NCBI RefSeq assembly: GCF_023638055.1
Contig: NZ_JAKRVY010000009.1
Span: 1 to 64,000 of the forward strand
Direction: 5' to 3'
DNA length: 64,000 nt
Source: Natranaeroarchaeum aerophilus
GTDB taxonomy: Archaea > Halobacteriota > Halobacteria > Halobacteriales > Natronoarchaeaceae
In this document: in pieces, positions 11,319 through 18,917 of the stretch
Numbering within the stretch: the stretch's first letter is position 1
Layout: each line of letters begins with the position of its first letter
Position numbers and translations under genes: made by a program
Notes under the pieces: model-generated
Told to the model about the DNA's origin: nothing
The model's input: only the letters and a program-made list of their open reading frames with translations
Databases searched by the model: none

Positions 11319-12491
11319 ATGGACTCAATCGTGGACGATGCCATCGACGAGGCCGAGGAGGGGGAGGAGGGGGCGGAGCGAAGCACCGCGACGCAGGACG
11401 TGAACCCGTCGGGAACGATGACCGACGACGAACTCGAAGACGTCCTGCAGGACCTGCAGACGAACATTACGGTGGTCGGCTGTGGCGGTGCAGGCGGTAA
11501 CACGGTCGACCGGATGTTCGAGGAAGGGATCCACGGCGCGAAACTGGTCGCGGCCAACACCGACGTCCAGCATCTGGTGGAGATCGAAGCCGACACGAAG
11601 ATCCTGATGGGCGAACAGAAGACCCAGGGCCGTGGCGCTGGCTCGCTCCCGCAGGTCGGCGAGGAGGCCGCCATCGAGAGTCAGGAGGAGATCTACGACG
11701 CCGTCGACGGCTCCGATATGGTCTTCGTCACGGCTGGCCTCGGCGGCGGCACTGGCACTGGCAGTGCCCCGGTCGTCGCCAAGGCCGCCCGCGAGAGCGG
11801 CGCGCTGACCATCGCCATCGTCACGACGCCCTTTACCGCAGAGGGCGAGGTTCGGCGCACCAACGCCGAAGCCGGTCTCGAACGGCTCCGCGACGTCGCC
11901 GACACCGTCATCGTCGTCCCGAACGACCGTCTGCTCGACTCGGTCGGCAAGCTTCCCGTCCGACAGGCGTTCAAGGTTAGCGACGAGGTGCTGATGCGCT
12001 CGGTGAAAGGAATCACCGAACTGATCACCAAACCCGGCCTGGTCAACCTGGACTTCGCCGACGTCCGAACGGTCATGGAACGTGGCGGCGTCGCCATGAT
12101 CGGGCTCGGCGAGTCCGATTCGGACGCCAAGGCCCAGGACTCGGTCAAGACGGCGCTACGCTCGCCGCTGCTTGACGTCGATATTTCGGGTGCGAACTCC
12201 GCGCTGGTCAACGTCACCGGTGGCTCCGACATGTCCATCGAGGAAGCCGAGGGCGTCGTCGAGGAGATCTACGACCGGATCGATCCGGACGCCCGGATCA
12301 TCTGGGGCACCTCCGTCGACGAGGAACTCGAAGGCATGATGCGAACGATGATCGTCGTCACCGGCGTCGACTCCCCGCAGATCTACGGCGGCAGCGACGA
12401 GGACGAGTCCCAGCCCGAGCCGCAGGGTCGGACGCCCGAACCACAGGGCCAGCCTGCCGACGGCGTCGAGGATATCGACTTCGTCGAATAA
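11319..12491 (+). CDS. ftsZ1: Cell division protein FtsZ1
   Basis: Tubulin-superfamily GTPase that polymerises at midcell. It is 390 aa. [15 protein letters not shown] opens the nucleotide-binding fold, AANTDVQHL and the tubulin signature [12 protein letters not shown] follow, and NDRLLD and [11 protein letters not shown] mark the central and activation domains. An acidic N-terminal extension of about 45 residues (DEAEEGEEG) is typical of haloarchaeal FtsZ1. The C-tail ends EDIDFVE after a Gln/Pro linker. A TATA box at 11284-11292 and the ATG give a leaderless transcript. The ftsZ1-secE-spt5 order is conserved in Haloferax, from memory. Confidence 0.97.
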
Positions 12492-13025: not shown

Positions 13026-13463
13026 ATGTCGATCTACGCAGTCAAAACGACCGCGAGTCAGGAACGCACCGTCGCCGACATGATCATGACTCGCGAGGAA
13101 GACGACATCCACGCGGCGCTCGCGCCCGACTCGCTTACTAGCTACGTCATGGTTGAAGCCGAAGACGATGCGATCCTCTCTCGTGTCCTCGAGGAGATTC
13201 CCCACGCCCGGAGCATCGTCCCCGGCGAGAGCGGCATCGGAGAGGTCGAACACTTCCTCTCCCCGACGCCGGACGTCGAGGGGATCGCGGAAGGCGATAT
13301 CGTCGAACTCGTCGCCGGACCGTTCAAAGGCGAGAAGGCACAGGTCCAGCGCATCGACGAGGGCAAAGATCAGGTAACCGTCGAACTCTACGAGGCGACC
13401 GTTCCGATTCCCGTAACCGTCAGGGGCGACCAGATCCGCGTGCTCGACAGCGACGAACGGTAA
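13026..13463 (+). CDS. spt5: Transcription elongation factor Spt5 (NusG-like)
   Basis: 145 aa with an N-terminal NGN domain ([41 protein letters not shown]) and a C-terminal KOW domain ([22 protein letters not shown]). It binds the RNA polymerase clamp together with Spt4 to raise processivity. Co-transcribed with secE across a 6-nt gap. Annotated as nusG in some haloarchaeal genomes. Confidence 0.95.
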
Positions 13464-13763
13464 CTATAACGAACCGCTGTCGTTCAACCGCTCGACAACC
13501 TGCTGGAGATCGGCTGTCGCTTCGACTTCGTCCTTTACTTCTTCGCGCTCGCGGACGTCGTCGGAGTTCGCATCGTACGCGCGCACGTACTCGGCGCGAG
13601 TGTGTTCGTTAAACGCGTGTCTGAGCGCCAGATAGCCGTCGGGGACGACAACGCCACAGACCTTGCACTCGCGGCGCTGGTGCTCGCTCGTCTGATGGAT
13701 GATCGCGTCCTCGATCTCCTCGAACACCTCGCCACAGCCGTCAATCCCGCATGCCCAGGTCAT
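13464..13763 (-). CDS. Small zinc-finger protein, 99 aa
   Basis: ATG 13763 (MTWACGIDGCGEVF) is preferred to the frame's longest start because the first Cys pair follows at once. It has two finger-like units, CGIDGCGEVFEEIEDAIIHQTSEH and CKVCGVVVPDGYLALRHAFNEH, each CxxC or CxxxxC plus His-x(3-4)-His, like C2H2 fingers. A charged, possibly coiled-coil tail follows. Nucleic-acid or protein binding is likely; the target is unknown. It converges on spt5 with no gap. Confidence 0.78.
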   Translation of the reverse strand: MTWACGIDGCGEVFEEIEDAIIHQTSEHQRRECKVCGVVVPDGYLALRHAFNEHTRAEYVRAYDANSDDVREREEVKDEVEATADLQQVVERLNDSGSL

Positions 13764-13805
13764 TACTGCACGCGTCTCCCGGCAGGGGCTAAAACCCTTC
13801 GGCAC

Positions 13806-14594
13806 TCAGACTCGCTCGCGGTCGAGTGCCTGTGCCCGCTCGCTGATCCAGCCGACCCCGGCGAGTTCGTAGGGGCGGTCGAGCAGCCACATATAGAGGA
13901 CGATCCCCTGGACAAGGAAGACGTTTGTCAGGAGGAAAAACAGCGCCTCCTCGATCGGGAGGCCAAGGATCGAGAGGCCGATCGTGTGTGTCTCCGAAAT
14001 CGACCAGATACCCAGCTCGATCGCGATCCGATCGGCGATCCAGAGGTATAGCGTCGGGACCGCAAGCGCCACCGCGACGAGTCGTGGGACTTCTTTTATC
14101 AGATACGTGATTCCGAACGCCCACTGGATGGCGAGGATCGGTCCCGCCCAAAACAGTAGCGACCCGAGATAGAACGTCGACGTGGTTGCCATGAGGAAAT
14201 AGCCGAGAATACAGATCGAGAGACCACCAGCCGCTCCCGCGAGCCGATGTGACAGTGGAATCAGTAGCGACCGGTCTTCGACAGTCAGGAACTGGAACAG
14301 CCAGAACGCAGTCAGGATCGGCTGCAGGATGAAAAACAGGTACTCCTCGATCGGCGTGTACCAGATCGTTCCGAGTACCGCGCCGTCGCCGTACCACCAG
14401 ACGCCTCTGGGAATCATAACGTTCGTCCACGGTGTCGTGTAGACGACGGCGAGAAACAGCATAATGGCGAGCCCGGAGAGCGGGGCACGTCCCCAGCTCG
14501 CAGTCTCCCGGCGTGCAGCAAGCCAGCCGAGCACGAGCAGTGGGGGGATAATAAACACCAGATGAAAACCCATGTAGGTGAGTGGGACGCTCAT
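13806..14594 (-). CDS. crtY: Lycopene beta-cyclase, membrane type
   Basis: 262 aa from ATG 14594, seven predicted transmembrane helices. The repeated lycopene cyclase signatures are WYTPIEEYLFF (about residues 83-93) and LPIEEALFFLLTN (near the C-terminus), showing the fused CrtYc-CrtYd arrangement of archaeal and fungal enzymes. It turns lycopene into beta-carotene, the precursor of retinal. The start codon overlaps the stop of a 37-codon leader ORF (ATGA). The promoter with the ACTAGTAAGG element lies upstream at the bat 3' end, tying crtY to the Bat regulon. Confidence 0.93.
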   Translation of the reverse strand: MSVPLTYMGFHLVFIIPPLLVLGWLAARRETASWGRAPLSGLAIMLFLAVVYTTPWTNVMIPRGVWWYGDGAVLGTIWYTPIEEYLFFILQPILTAFWLFQFLTVEDRSLLIPLSHRLAGAAGGLSICILGYFLMATTSTFYLGSLLFWAGPILAIQWAFGITYLIKEVPRLVAVALAVPTLYLWIADRIAIELGIWSISETHTIGLSILGLPIEEALFFLLTNVFLVQGIVLYMWLLDRPYELAGVGWISERAQALDRERV

Positions 14595-14704
14595 CGCCAA
14601 TCACCGGCCTGCGGTCGCGAGCGCAACGGTGGCGAACCGATGCCAGTGCTCGGACGACACGCGCCCAGACTTGGGCAGGGGCTCTGCCGGTGATTGACAC
14701 TCAT
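14591..14704 (-). CDS. Candidate 37-aa leader peptide coupled to crtY
   Basis: An ORF from ATG 14704 (MSVNHRQSPCPSLG and onward, ending AGDWR) stops with a TGA that overlaps the crtY ATG as ATGA. The ATG lies about 26 nt after a TATA-like TTTTCACTATTTG (14724-14736 on the minus strand), as in a leaderless message, so ribosomes would enter here and re-initiate at crtY. The peptide is Pro/Arg/Ser-rich and not recognisable. It may be regulatory or only a ribosome-delivery device. Confidence 0.45.
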   Translation of the reverse strand: MSVNHRQSPCPSLGACRPSTGIGSPPLRSRPQAGDWR

Positions 14705-14721: not shown

Positions 14722-14753
14722 TCAAATAGTGAAAAGCACTGATCCTTACTAGT
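14722..14753 (-). promoter_or_regulatory. crtY promoter with Bat-type upstream element
   Basis: On the minus strand ACTAGTAAGG (14744-14753) is followed 12 nt after ACTAGT by a TATA-like TTTTCACTATTTG. The same ACTAGTAAGG with the same 12-nt spacing precedes hop. The element overlaps the bat stop codon. It resembles the ACTAGTT-containing upstream activating sequence of the Halobacterium bop regulon. Confidence 0.65.
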
Positions 14754-16737
14754 TAGGTTCTATGATCAGTTCGACCAGCTTCTGTTCTGCCGCACGCAGG
14801 TGCTGGTGAAAGGTCTGACGCGTGATTCCCATCGTCTCGGCGACTTCTTCACCATCGACTTCGCGTGGCCATTCGAAGTAGCCGTTCATATGGGCAGCTT
14901 TCAGTGCTGTCATCTGTCGGTTCGTGAGCCGATTCTCGATGTCCGTACTGCACTCGTTGAAACTCTCTTTGCGTCCCTCGCGTTCGTGTTTCGATCTGAG
15001 TTCGATCCGGTCGTACTCGGATTCCAGCAGTTCGAGGATCGACCTGACGTCGTATTCCGGTGGAACCTCGAGCGAGATGGTTGCTCGGGAGGGTTCAGCG
15101 CGTATTTTCAGCACGGATGCACCGTAGTCGGCCAGTGTGTCGAACGGTTCCGTGGAGCTGACTCCGATCGCAAACTGATGACCGTCGTCTGTCTCGGAGA
15201 TCCTCCGGACGCTCTCGACATCCGGTAGAGAGAGCAGTTCCTCGACCTCTCCTCCGATCTGTGGCACCTGTATATATATTTCAGAGCCCTTCTCACCGAC
15301 CAGACCGATATACTCTATCTCGGAATCGATCGCACCGGCGAATGCGGAGAGCAAAAACGTCTCGTCGTACAGCTCCAGTTCGAGTTCGATGACGCTGGAA
15401 GTAGTCAGTATTCGCGCTGTTTCGACGGTGTTGAGTCCGCTAGCGATCATCTGTCCGATCGACTCGAACAGCTGCGCTTCGCGGCTGTCGAGGGCGTTAT
15501 CCCCTTCGGCGTAGACCCCGAGCGCACCGTACTGTTTCTGCTGGTATATCAACGGGACGACCGTAAGCCGCCGTGCGCCGACTGATTCTGGCGCAAGCAC
15601 AGCGTCCGTTTCGGAGCCGATCGTACAGGTTTCGACAGTTCCTGACTCGATTGCATCTCCAACGGCAGCCGGCATCGAGTCGAGCTCGATCTTCGACTCG
15701 ATGCCCTCGACCGTCCCCGAGTACGAAGAGAGCTCGAACTGCGTGTCGGTCGGGTTCGTTCTTCCGATCCAGCTGGCGACGTAGTTCTCCGAATCGACGA
15801 CCTCGTCACAGACCGACTGAACGATCACTTCTCGGTCGTTTTCCTCGACGAGGATGCGTGAAATATCGCTGAGCAATCCGTTGACCCGCATGATGATCCG
15901 CTGGAGTACTGTCCGTTCGGCAGCCAGCTTCTCAGCGCGCTGCTCTGCGAGCTGTTTGGTCCTCTTGCGGTCCGTGACGTCGTTCTGGAACCCGACGTAA
16001 TGAGCGAGATTGCCGTCATTATCGTAGATTGGTGCCACCGTTAGTTCGTTCCAGAACGGTGTACCGTCGCTCCGGTAGTTGCGTATTTCCACCGTGACCT
16101 GCTCTTCGTCCTCGATTGCGTCAGCGAGTTCGCCGACGACTTCCGGGTCCGTCCCCGGACCCTGTAGGAGTCGAGGGTTGCGACCGAGCATCTGCTCTTC
16201 GTCGTAGCCGGTCAGCTCTGACCAGGCCTCGTTGACGAATACGAGCGGGTTGCCGGGCAGCGAGGGATCGCTCATCGTCACTCCGATCGGCGATTCCTGT
16301 ACTGCTCGCGAAATCTCCTCTACCGTCGGTCGGTTCGCTTCGATTTCTTCCCTGTTAACCGGCTTTGCTCCCCTGGTGGTCACCTCATTGACTTCGATAC
16401 GCAGCTGTTCGAGCGACGCCGACCCATTCTTCCGGAGAAACCGGCTCACGCCGTTCTCGAACGCGCGAGTCGTAATCTCCTGTTGCTCCGAATTGGTAAA
16501 GAGGATCACCGGCAGCTCCGGGTGTGTCTCCCTGACTGCTGACAACAGCGACAGTCCGTCGTCGCCCGGCAGGTCGTGCTCGCTGACGAGACAGTCGAAC
16601 TGCCGTGCGGATAGTTTGGCGAGAGCTGCTGTAGCTTGTTCGACATGTTCGACCTGACAGCCAGCGTCCTCCAGGGTGGCTACTACTCGTTGGGCACCAC
16701 CCTCCGGATGGACCAGCAGCGTTTGGGCGGTAGACAT
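14749..16737 (-). CDS. bat: Bacterio-opsin activator Bat with degenerate receiver and LOV-like PAS
   Basis: 662 aa from ATG 16737. Order: receiver-like domain (about 5-118), PAS domain of LOV type (about 140-258), GAF (about 285-445), Bat-specific beta-rich region (about 450-590) and C-terminal HTH_10 (LTNRQMTALKAAHMNGYFEWPRE and onward, about 600-660). The receiver has Glu53 where Asp is phosphorylated and lacks the acidic pair, though Thr81 and Lys103 remain. The LOV core GRNPRLLQG has Pro188 in place of the photoactive Cys but keeps the flavin-contacting NYRSDGTPFWN and GFQNDVT. It probably activates hop and crtY, senses oxygen/redox or light, and diverges from hop. Confidence 0.92.
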   Translation of the reverse strand: MSTAQTLLVHPEGGAQRVVATLEDAGCQVEHVEQATAALAKLSARQFDCLVSEHDLPGDDGLSLLSAVRETHPELPVILFTNSEQQEITTRAFENGVSRFLRKNGSASLEQLRIEVNEVTTRGAKPVNREEIEANRPTVEEISRAVQESPIGVTMSDPSLPGNPLVFVNEAWSELTGYDEEQMLGRNPRLLQGPGTDPEVVGELADAIEDEEQVTVEIRNYRSDGTPFWNELTVAPIYDNDGNLAHYVGFQNDVTDRKRTKQLAEQRAEKLAAERTVLQRIIMRVNGLLSDISRILVEENDREVIVQSVCDEVVDSENYVASWIGRTNPTDTQFELSSYSGTVEGIESKIELDSMPAAVGDAIESGTVETCTIGSETDAVLAPESVGARRLTVVPLIYQQKQYGALGVYAEGDNALDSREAQLFESIGQMIASGLNTVETARILTTSSVIELELELYDETFLLSAFAGAIDSEIEYIGLVGEKGSEIYIQVPQIGGEVEELLSLPDVESVRRISETDDGHQFAIGVSSTEPFDTLADYGASVLKIRAEPSRATISLEVPPEYDVRSILELLESEYDRIELRSKHEREGRKESFNECSTDIENRLTNRQMTALKAAHMNGYFEWPREVDGEEVAETMGITRQTFHQHLRAAEQKLVELIIEPN

Positions 16738-16879
16738 AGTTATACGTTGGTTCGCATCGGGTAATACCTTCCGGCAGTTTTTGCTACCCACGAACCGAAC
16801 TCCGTTGTCGAGTAGCTGCTGGTCGCTGTTTTGCTCTGCACGGTGGGCAGCCGCATCCCCCAGTGCAAACTGAAATCAT

Positions 16880-16904
16880 ACTAGTAAGGTCATGTTGTTA
16901 TTAT
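16880..16904 (+). promoter_or_regulatory. hop promoter with Bat-type upstream element
   Basis: ACTAGTAAGG (16880-16889) followed by TTGTTATTATG (16894-16904) as TATA box, about 28 nt before ATG 16932. The upstream element next to a weak TATA is the layout described for bop in Halobacterium. The rest of 16738-16931 contains the bat promoter (GGTATTACC on the minus strand near 16762-16770). Confidence 0.7.
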
Positions 16905-16931: not shown

Positions 16932-17795
16932 ATGTTAGAGGCGATAGCCGGTGATGCGGCCGCGATAGCACAGTTCGGGACGTTCCTCGAGATGACCCAG
17001 CCAGAAATCTTCGAGGCAGTGCAGGATGACGCGTTGCTTAGCGCCTCGTTCTGGGTAAACATCGCGCTTGCCGGGCTGTCAATCCTGCTGTTCGTGTATA
17101 TGGGGCGTAACGTCGAAGATCCACGATCCCAGCTGATCTTCGTCGCGACGCTGATGGTTCCGCTCGTCTCCATCTCCAGCTACACCGGACTTGTGTCCGG
17201 TCTGACGATCAGTTTCCTGGAGATGCCGGCGAATCACGCACTCGGGGGCGAAGAAGTACTAACCATGTGGGGCCGCTACCTCACCTGGGCACTGTCGACA
17301 CCGATGATCCTGCTCGCACTCGGCTTGCTTGCAGGCTCTAACGTAACCGATCTGTTCACGGCGATTGTCGCTGACATCGGGATGTGTGTGACCGGGCTCG
17401 CCGCCGCGCTGACCGTGTCCTCTCACGGTCTGCGCTGGTTCTGGTACTTCATCAGCTGCATGTTCTTCCTGGTCGTCCTCTACGTCCTGTTGGTCAAGTG
17501 GCCGGAGGACGCCAAGGCGAACGGAACGGATGAAATCTTCAACACGCTGAAGATTCTCACCGTCGCGATGTGGCTCGGCTACCCGATCTTCTGGGCACTC
17601 GGTGCCGAGGGGATCGCGATCATCGAGAGCGTTGCAATTACGTCGTGGGCCTACAGTGGCCTCGACATCGTCGCGAAGTACATCTTCGCGTTCCTGCTAC
17701 TGAACTGGGTCGTCAACAACGAGTCGATTATCGCCGACATGCCGACGCTCGGCTCCGGCTCCGCCGCATCGGGCGCGGCCCCTGCTGACGACTGA
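16932..17795 (+). CDS. hop: Halorhodopsin, light-driven inward chloride pump
   Basis: 287 aa from ATG 16932, seven transmembrane helices. Helix C is RYLTWALSTPMILLA with Thr118, Ser122 and Ala129, the TSA triplet of Natronomonas-type halorhodopsin rather than the DTD of proton pumps. Retinal Schiff-base Lys249 and counter-ion Asp245 lie in SGLDIVAKYIFAF. The WFWYFISC and FNTLKILTVAMWLGYP blocks and ADD end also match. The loop between helices B and C (MPANHALGGEEVLTMWG) is about ten residues shorter than in NpHR. It needs retinal made by the neighbouring crtY and brp products and is probably Bat-controlled. Confidence 0.96.
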   Translation: MLEAIAGDAAAIAQFGTFLEMTQPEIFEAVQDDALLSASFWVNIALAGLSILLFVYMGRNVEDPRSQLIFVATLMVPLVSISSYTGLVSGLTISFLEMPANHALGGEEVLTMWGRYLTWALSTPMILLALGLLAGSNVTDLFTAIVADIGMCVTGLAAALTVSSHGLRWFWYFISCMFFLVVLYVLLVKWPEDAKANGTDEIFNTLKILTVAMWLGYPIFWALGAEGIAIIESVAITSWAYSGLDIVAKYIFAFLLLNWVVNNESIIADMPTLGSGSAASGAAPADD

Positions 17796-17852: not shown

Positions 17853-18917
17853 ATGAGTGACACTTCCAGCCCTACTGCAGAGCGACTCGTGGCAGCGCTT
17901 GCTGGGCGGCGGTTAGAGGGGGCCGCTAGGCTGGCACTTCTTCCGGGCTGGATCACGCTCCTTGCGACCTCGGTCCTTGTCACGATCGTCGGGACGGAGA
18001 TTCCGCTTTCGATACAGTTGGCCCCACTATTCTTGAGCGTCCTCCTGCTGGGACTTCCCCACGGTGCGGTCGACCATCTCGTCACTCCCCGTGCGAGAGG
18101 AACGGCTCTGACGATTCGGTCGATGGCCGAGGTCGGTGTGGTCTACGCCGTCCTCGGCAGTGGCTACGCTGTCGTCTGGTTTCTCTCGCCTGCCGCCGCG
18201 TTCGTTTTCTTTATCCTGCTCACCTGGTTCCACTGGGGGCAAGGGGACATCCACCCGGTTCGCGAACTCGTCGGCGGCAACCACGTCCGGGGTCCCGGTG
18301 GGACGGCACTGACCGCTCTCGTCCGCGGCGGCGCACCGATGCTAGTGCCGCTGGTCGCGTTCCCGGGTGAGTACCGACGCGTCGCCGAGTGGATCGTCGG
18401 CGTCGTCGACCCGGGCGCTGTCGGCGCTCTGGATCCGTTCTTTACTGCCGAGGCACGGCTCCTGGTGGCCGCGCTGTACGGGGCACTCGTCGTCGGTGCG
18501 CTCTCGCTCGGGTGGGTCCGCAGGACGGATTCTCGTCCGTGGCGGATCGATGCTGTCGAAACCGGATTACTGGTCGGGTTTTTTGCTACCGTCCCACCAC
18601 TGCTTGCGATCGGCCTGTACTTCTGTTTCTGGCACTCGCTTCGACACATCGTCCGGTTCCTGTTGCTGGACGAGCACGTGGAGAGCGAGATTGCCGATGG
18701 GGCCGTCGTCACTCCACTGTCCCGGTTTGCCCGCGACGCTGCCCCGCTGACGGCGCTTTCGCTCGTGTTCGGTGTCGCGCTCTACCTGTTGCTGCCGGGA
18801 GCCGCAACCGATCCCGGGAGCCTGATGGGGGTCTATCTGGTCTTTATCGCCGTGCTAACGCTCCCACACGTTGCCTTCGTTTCCGTCCTCGATTACTACG
18901 ATGGGTTCTGGCGATGA
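17853..18917 (+). CDS. brp: Brp/Blh-family beta-carotene 15,15'-dioxygenase
   Basis: 354 aa, with about eight transmembrane helices. Iron-binding His motifs of the Brp/Blh family are present: LPHGAVDHL, TWFHWGQGD and FWHSLRHIVRF, in order, plus LPHVAFV near the end. It cleaves beta-carotene into two retinals in the membrane. It lies 57 nt after hop, across a T-rich stretch (TTTTTTATT at 17822-17830) that could be the hop terminator or its own TATA box. No ACTAGTAAGG element precedes it, so read-through from hop is likely. Confidence 0.93.
   Translation: MSDTSSPTAERLVAALAGRRLEGAARLALLPGWITLLATSVLVTIVGTEIPLSIQLAPLFLSVLLLGLPHGAVDHLVTPRARGTALTIRSMAEVGVVYAVLGSGYAVVWFLSPAAAFVFFILLTWFHWGQGDIHPVRELVGGNHVRGPGGTALTALVRGGAPMLVPLVAFPGEYRRVAEWIVGVVDPGAVGALDPFFTAEARLLVAALYGALVVGALSLGWVRRTDSRPWRIDAVETGLLVGFFATVPPLLAIGLYFCFWHSLRHIVRFLLLDEHVESEIADGAVVTPLSRFARDAAPLTALSLVFGVALYLLLPGAATDPGSLMGVYLVFIAVLTLPHVAFVSVLDYYDGFWR

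Follow-up and report, generated by a model that had tools for sequence, protein, structure and literature searches.

The bat gene of Natranaeroarchaeum aerophilus lies next to a halorhodopsin gene and encodes a protein whose LOV domain has proline at the site of the adduct-forming cysteine. This raises the question of what such an activator senses and how it came to lose the cysteine. We addressed it using the window, that is, the whole stretch of 64,000 nucleotides that was analyzed, together with comparisons across haloarchaeal genomes. The Cys-less LOV domain of Bat is not new in itself, because Yee et al. 2015 (PMC4682037) already published the central idea. What is new here is the evolutionary part: the paired, single, and derived exchange at Cys188/Trp172 and its persistence. 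No earlier report of Trp172 conservation in Cys-less Bats was found in the open-access literature.

Architecture of Bat and fold of its LOV domain

The initial annotation had described the minus-strand open reading frame as a Bat with a Cys-less LOV domain, and this was confirmed: a receiver, a LOV/PAS domain, GAF, BAT, and HTH_10 lie within one protein, and the motif GRNPRLLQG places Pro188 at the adduct site. The features of the gene are as follows.

14749..16737, minus strand: bat gene, 662 aa, receiver-LOV-GAF-BAT-HTH, ATG at 16737
16384..16728, minus strand: N-terminal receiver-like domain, residues 4-118, with a degenerate phosphorylation site (Pfam Response_reg and beta/alpha pattern)
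16579..16581, minus strand: Glu53 codon, at the site of the phospho-acceptor Asp
15952..16311, minus strand: LOV domain, residues 143-262 (Pfam, closest chains, structure overlay)
16222..16224, minus strand: Trp172 codon, flavin-quenching Trp, invariant in Cys-less Bats (alignment and PMC4682037)
16174..16176, minus strand: Pro188 codon, at the site of the adduct-forming Cys (alignment)
15433..15840, minus strand: GAF domain, residues 300-435 (Pfam GAF_2)
14959..15396, minus strand: BAT domain, residues 448-593 (Pfam PF15915)
14770..14928, minus strand: HTH_10 DNA-binding domain, residues 604-656 (Pfam PF04967)

The Pfam spans were Response_reg 17-105, PAS_9 163-256, GAF_2 300-435, BAT 448-593, and HTH_10 604-656. 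The closest solved chains by sequence to residues 139-282 were YtvA (first) and the Mrub_1259 LOV domain, which share 42-44% identity with Bat in the LOV region and its fold at about 1 Å. An AlphaFold2 model built from 40 Bats gave a pLDDT of about 90-95 in the LOV part, which overlays LOV crystal structures at 0.7-1.3 Å; the N-terminus of the model is receiver-like, with residue 53 ending strand 3. Judged from sequence and model together, the LOV fold is real. Bat keeps G185, N187, R189, L191, Q192, N220, N230, and Q251, and the flavin-contact motifs noted earlier are present (NYRSDGTPFWN from 220, GFQNDVT from 249). The domain differs from a canonical LOV photoreceptor in having Pro188 in place of the adduct Cys of GxNCRFLQ. 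YtvA and Mrub_1259 have Cys where Bat has Pro, and YtvA has Phe where Bat has Trp172. Residue 190, Phe in YtvA, is Leu in Bat; in other Cys-less Bats it is mostly Phe or Leu.

The nearest studied domain is a halobacterial BAT-LOV* with Pro188 in matching numbering, which binds flavin (PMC4682037). It has the same architecture as the N. aerophilus protein, Trp172, Pro188, Tyr247, and Asn252 coincide in number, and the conserved LOV residues other than Cys are kept; residue 163 is Tyr in BAT-LOV* and Asn in N. aerophilus Bat. The biochemistry was performed on the isolated domain produced in E. coli, not on the full activator, and the recombinant domain carried flavin at modest occupancy (PMC4682037). 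Trp172, whose geometry relative to the flavin comes from the homology model of that study, quenches the excited flavin, and because of it photoreduction of the wild-type domain is slower than that of the Vivid reference by nearly two orders of magnitude (PMC4682037). A triple variant including W172F regains photoreduction, and in SEC a variant with W172F shifts with light, whereas the wild type does not. Chemical reduction to the hydroquinone changes the conformation, and P188C forms no canonical adduct (PMC4682037).

Residues 172 and 188 across the Bat family

A search of 391 Halobacteria-class genomes at E <= 1e-120, with one genome per species, found Bat in 52 genomes; residue 188 was Pro in 46, Cys in 5, and Ala in 1. 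Pro188 is therefore not sequencing noise. The surveyed Bats were aligned with 76 named loci and the genus of G366, giving 92 rows after near-copies were removed. Counts and trees draw on 90 of these (Bat and Bat-like), and Halorubrum predominates among the Cys-less rows. The initial annotation had proposed aligning haloarchaeal Bats at positions 53 and 188. In this alignment Pro188 proved ordinary for the Cys-less clade, and Glu53 proved variable.

Trp172 was present in all 59 Cys-less rows (residue 188 being Pro in 57, Ala in 1, and Leu in 1) and absent from all 31 Cys rows, which have Tyr or Phe there. Of all columns in residues 130-289, just 172 and 188 share no residue between the Cys-less (59) and Cys (31) rows, and the two rows in which Pro188 has relaxed to Ala and Leu keep Trp172. 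The flavin contacts N169, N187, R189, Q192, N220, N230, and Q251 were invariant in 59/59 Cys-less Bats. Columns conserved at 95% or more in these Bats numbered 37/120 in LOV, 31/53 in HTH, 7/115 in the receiver, 14/158 in GAF, and 12/146 in BAT. The invariant flavin contacts and the contrast between LOV and receiver argue that the flavin is in use and that the receiver is degenerate.

Trp172 had been termed unconserved, with Phe in most homologues (PMC4682037). On our alignment this remark is now refined: the residue is invariant within the Cys-less Bat clade. A pattern scan of the same genomes found many other Cys-less LOV domains outside Bat. Among 75 distinct non-Bat Cys-less sequence contexts, counted with the Bat locus L219 left out, residue 172 was Phe in 68, Leu in 4, and Ala, Val, and Trp (L252) in 1 each; 23 distinct Cys-containing non-Bat contexts have Phe or Tyr. 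Because nearly all non-Bat Cys-less LOVs have Phe172, Trp172 is essentially a Bat feature. The idea that Cys loss requires Trp was ruled out, since 68/75 of the other Cys-less haloarchaeal contexts keep Phe172. PMC4682037 compared all Cys-less LOVs, and the Bat-specific nature of Trp172 may explain its mostly-Phe result.

The non-Bat Cys-less groups (L193-L282) carry His (GANHRFLQG), Leu (GENLRLLQG), or Pro (GRNPRFLQG) at the Cys site, and LOV domains with Pro have been reported from Lake Diamante (PMC12202551). The N. aerophilus genome itself holds two further LOV proteins that have the adduct Cys, L004 (C1:793311) and L006 (C1:239901), which by their sequences are candidates for true blue-light sensing.

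Direction of change

Trees built without columns 172 and 188 recovered one Cys-less clade (UFBoot 100, SH-aLRT 98). To exclude domain swapping, a LOV-free tree was built from GAF-BAT-HTH only, with three same-genome paralogues serving as root. The Cys-less clade appeared again at 100/98, nested inside Cys188 Bats; it was sister to two Cys188/Phe172 Bats, with Cys188/Tyr172 Bats further out and receiver-less Cys188 proteins beyond them. This nested placement in a rooted tree means that the loss of Cys in Bat is derived and happened once. Trp172 was gained on the branch on which Cys188 was lost. The co-variation of W172 with P, A, or L188 was accordingly not taken as independent evidence; the tree shows one event, which is counted once, with no independent replicates within Bat. 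A swap of a foreign LOV domain into Bat was also rejected, as in the LOV-only tree the Cys-less Bat LOVs fall together (SH-aLRT 95) and separate from other Cys-less groups, in agreement with the LOV-free tree. The LOV-only tree is poorly resolved; it suggests about ten switches between the Cys and the Cys-less state.

We give about even credence to the following account. On one branch of the Bat lineage, a Cys-adduct LOV photoreceptor would have become a light-protected flavin redox sensor through loss of Cys188 and gain of the quenching Trp172. Bat would still have controlled hop promoters with the same DNA site, while sister Bats, some in the same genus, keep the photo-competent residues. 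The Cys188 Bats (Halovenus type, G317/G359) resemble the N. aerophilus protein in their full-length architecture at hop loci, in Glu (or Ala) at 53, and, in the Halovenus type, in having a CCNNACTAGTNNGG site before hop; they differ in that the adduct Cys is kept and residue 172 is Tyr or Phe, and the Halovenus type also retains part of the receiver acidic pocket (Asp10).

Both types of Bat occur in genus code g48 (Halovenus and relatives). Cys-less Trp172 Bats are found in some genomes (L138, L119, L125, L128, L172), with hop divergent where seen, and Cys188/Tyr172 Bats in others (L140, L143-L146, L149, L186), with hop co-directional. This mix suggests replacement of the whole regulator locus.

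The receiver domain

The receiver does not have a phosphorylatable site. Glu53 lies in SEHDLPG, and, as the initial annotation had described, the acidic pocket is gone; LLVHPE stands where receivers have LLVDD. Its further proposal, that Glu53 keeps Bat constitutively on, was not supported: residue 53 is Glu in 46/59 Cys-less Bats and Gly, Ser, Thr, Ala, or Val in 13/59. Asp was absent at 53 from every aligned Bat. The ten full-length Cys188 Bats have Glu (9) or Ala (1) at 53, so loss of the acceptor Asp preceded that of the LOV Cys. Of the acidic pocket, Asp10 is present in 8/10 of these Bats versus 1/59 Cys-less Bats, and the receiver has no invariant column. The drift of residue 53 within the Cys-less clade makes a required phosphomimic unlikely.

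The locus and candidate Bat sites

The locus is linked to rhodopsin and retinal-synthesis genes, with hop, blh, and a lycopene-cyclase gene adjoining.

16932..17795, plus strand: halorhodopsin gene hop, RYLTWALSTP motif, divergent from bat (PDB matches and Pfam Bac_rhodopsin)
17853..18917, plus strand: Brp/Blh beta-carotene 15,15'-dioxygenase, retinal synthesis, after hop (TIGR03753)
13806..14600, minus strand: lycopene cyclase-domain protein, CrtY type (TIGR03462, Pfam Lycopene_cyc)
16876..16889, unstranded: predicted Bat site TCATACTAGTAAGG, 9/10 match, 43-56 bp before the hop ATG at 16932
14744..14757, unstranded: predicted Bat site CCTTACTAGTTAGG, 10/10 match, overlapping the bat stop codon, upstream of the lycopene-cyclase gene

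The best PDB matches of hop were halorhodopsins (E 2e-109), and its helix C motif, RYLTWALSTPMILL, is of the chloride-pump Thr-Ser-Ala type. Like Halobacterium salinarum Bat, the protein is a Bat family activator beside rhodopsin and retinal-synthesis genes; here, however, the adjoining pump is a halorhodopsin, not bacteriorhodopsin, and the lycopene-cyclase gene also adjoins. Where flanks are long enough, most full-length Bats, Cys or Cys-less, have hop, bop, blh, or crtY nearby, unlike the receiver-less relatives in Natrialbaceae. A DUF7565 protein of 113 aa with Cys/His zinc-finger-like motifs (13464-13805, minus strand; 96% in the congener) adjoins the lycopene-cyclase gene, and on the far side of that gene lie ftsZ (11319-12491, plus strand; TIGR00065) and, by eye, a NusG/Spt5-like open reading frame (13026-13463, plus strand).

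UAS-like matches with up to 3 mismatches were not above chance across the 64-kb window (13 found versus 9.9 expected), and the CCNNACTAGTNNGG sites are credible only because of their stricter core, their positions, and their conservation in relatives. The 3.29-Mb genome has three copies of ACTAGTWAGG. One precedes hop, one lies in the bat/lycopene-cyclase interval, and the third precedes an amino-acid permease gene on contig 8. In the congener, the palindrome overlapping the bat stop codon is conserved and is the sole match. Of 25 halorhodopsin genes scored, 19 had a match of at least 9/10 to CCNNACTAGTNNGG upstream, mostly no more than 60 bp from the start, in a scan that missed the hop site at 16876-16889, which was seen by separate inspection; the overall rate is about 0.017 per 320 bp, a rate that itself includes these sites. 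Such matches stand before hop in genomes with either type of Bat, Cys or Cys-less. The UAS consensus of H. salinarum, reportedly ACCcnactagTTnGG in the work of Baliga and DasSarma, has the same core as CCNNACTAGTNNGG. The two near-unique CCNNACTAGTNNGG sites, before hop and before the lycopene-cyclase gene, are the likely Bat targets as predicted from sequence. The contig 8 site (152081-152094, L303) is a palindromic CCNNACTAGTNNGG just upstream of an AA_permease_2 open reading frame, and the permease is a possible further target.

What Bat may sense

We consider it probable that Bat is an activator of the halorhodopsin and retinal genes and that its LOV domain is a flavin redox (low-oxygen) sensor with damped photochemistry, since a Trp-quenched flavin favors redox or oxygen sensing over light. 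When oxygen falls, the reduced flavin would alter the LOV conformation, and the signal would pass through the helix and the GAF/BAT domains to the HTH, so that Bat would activate hop and the lycopene-cyclase gene from the CCNNACTAGTNNGG sites, with the receiver acting without phosphorylation. Flavin redox sensing is proposed for Bat by analogy with the PAS redox sensors Aer and NifL, from which it differs in being nearer in sequence to LOV photoreceptors (PMC4682037). Low-oxygen induction through Bat is cited in PMC3184054. In H. salinarum, bop induction is light-responsive, and the light effect on a reporter needed Bat with Brz and Brb (PMC3184054); under the redox reading, this light control would enter mostly by another route or through the cell redox state, and an indirect or weak direct light input to Bat is possible. 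The initial annotation had suggested redox or blue-light sensing through the Cys-less LOV domain. Flavin binding and a response to reduction, both known from BAT-LOV*, support the redox part, but light as the main input does not fit the slow photoreduction caused by a Trp172 that is invariant in the Cys-less clade.

For the same reason, we think it unlikely that Bat is a direct blue-light sensor in which the flavin goes to the neutral semiquinone and signals through Gln251 with no Cys. Cys-less Vivid and YF1 do signal in this way, Gln251 is kept, and bop is light-inducible together with Bat, Brz, and Brb (PMC3184054), but wild-type BAT-LOV* shows neither fast photoreduction nor a light shift in SEC (PMC4682037). 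Somewhat less likely still is a LOV domain that serves only as a structural or dimerization module and no longer uses flavin; the reactive Cys is gone and occupancy of the recombinant domain is modest (PMC4682037), yet the flavin contacts do not vary among the 59 diverged Cys-less Bats, in which conservation of the LOV domain far exceeds that of the receiver, GAF, or BAT domains. That Glu53 mimics phospho-Asp and holds Bat on is very improbable. Glu is the commonest residue at 53 in both types of full-length Bat, but the genus's only other genome has Gly there, and further Bats at intact loci have Gly, Ser, Thr, Ala, or Val, in a receiver that has lost its acidic pocket and has no invariant column. 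Hardly any weight falls on the view, raised on general grounds in PMC4682037, that light-sensing LOV domains arose from an ancestral flavoprotein state represented by Cys-less Bat, as the Cys-less Bats form a derived clade within Cys188 proteins in trees that are LOV-free and rooted on paralogues.

On the input of Bat (light, oxygen, or both), the paired Cys/Trp exchange offers a sharp, testable answer. Cys188 and Trp172/Pro188 Bats at halorhodopsin loci, sometimes both within Halovenus, form a natural experiment. The history of the exchange argues that Bat represents a secondary loss of light chemistry rather than a relic of an ancestral redox LOV domain.
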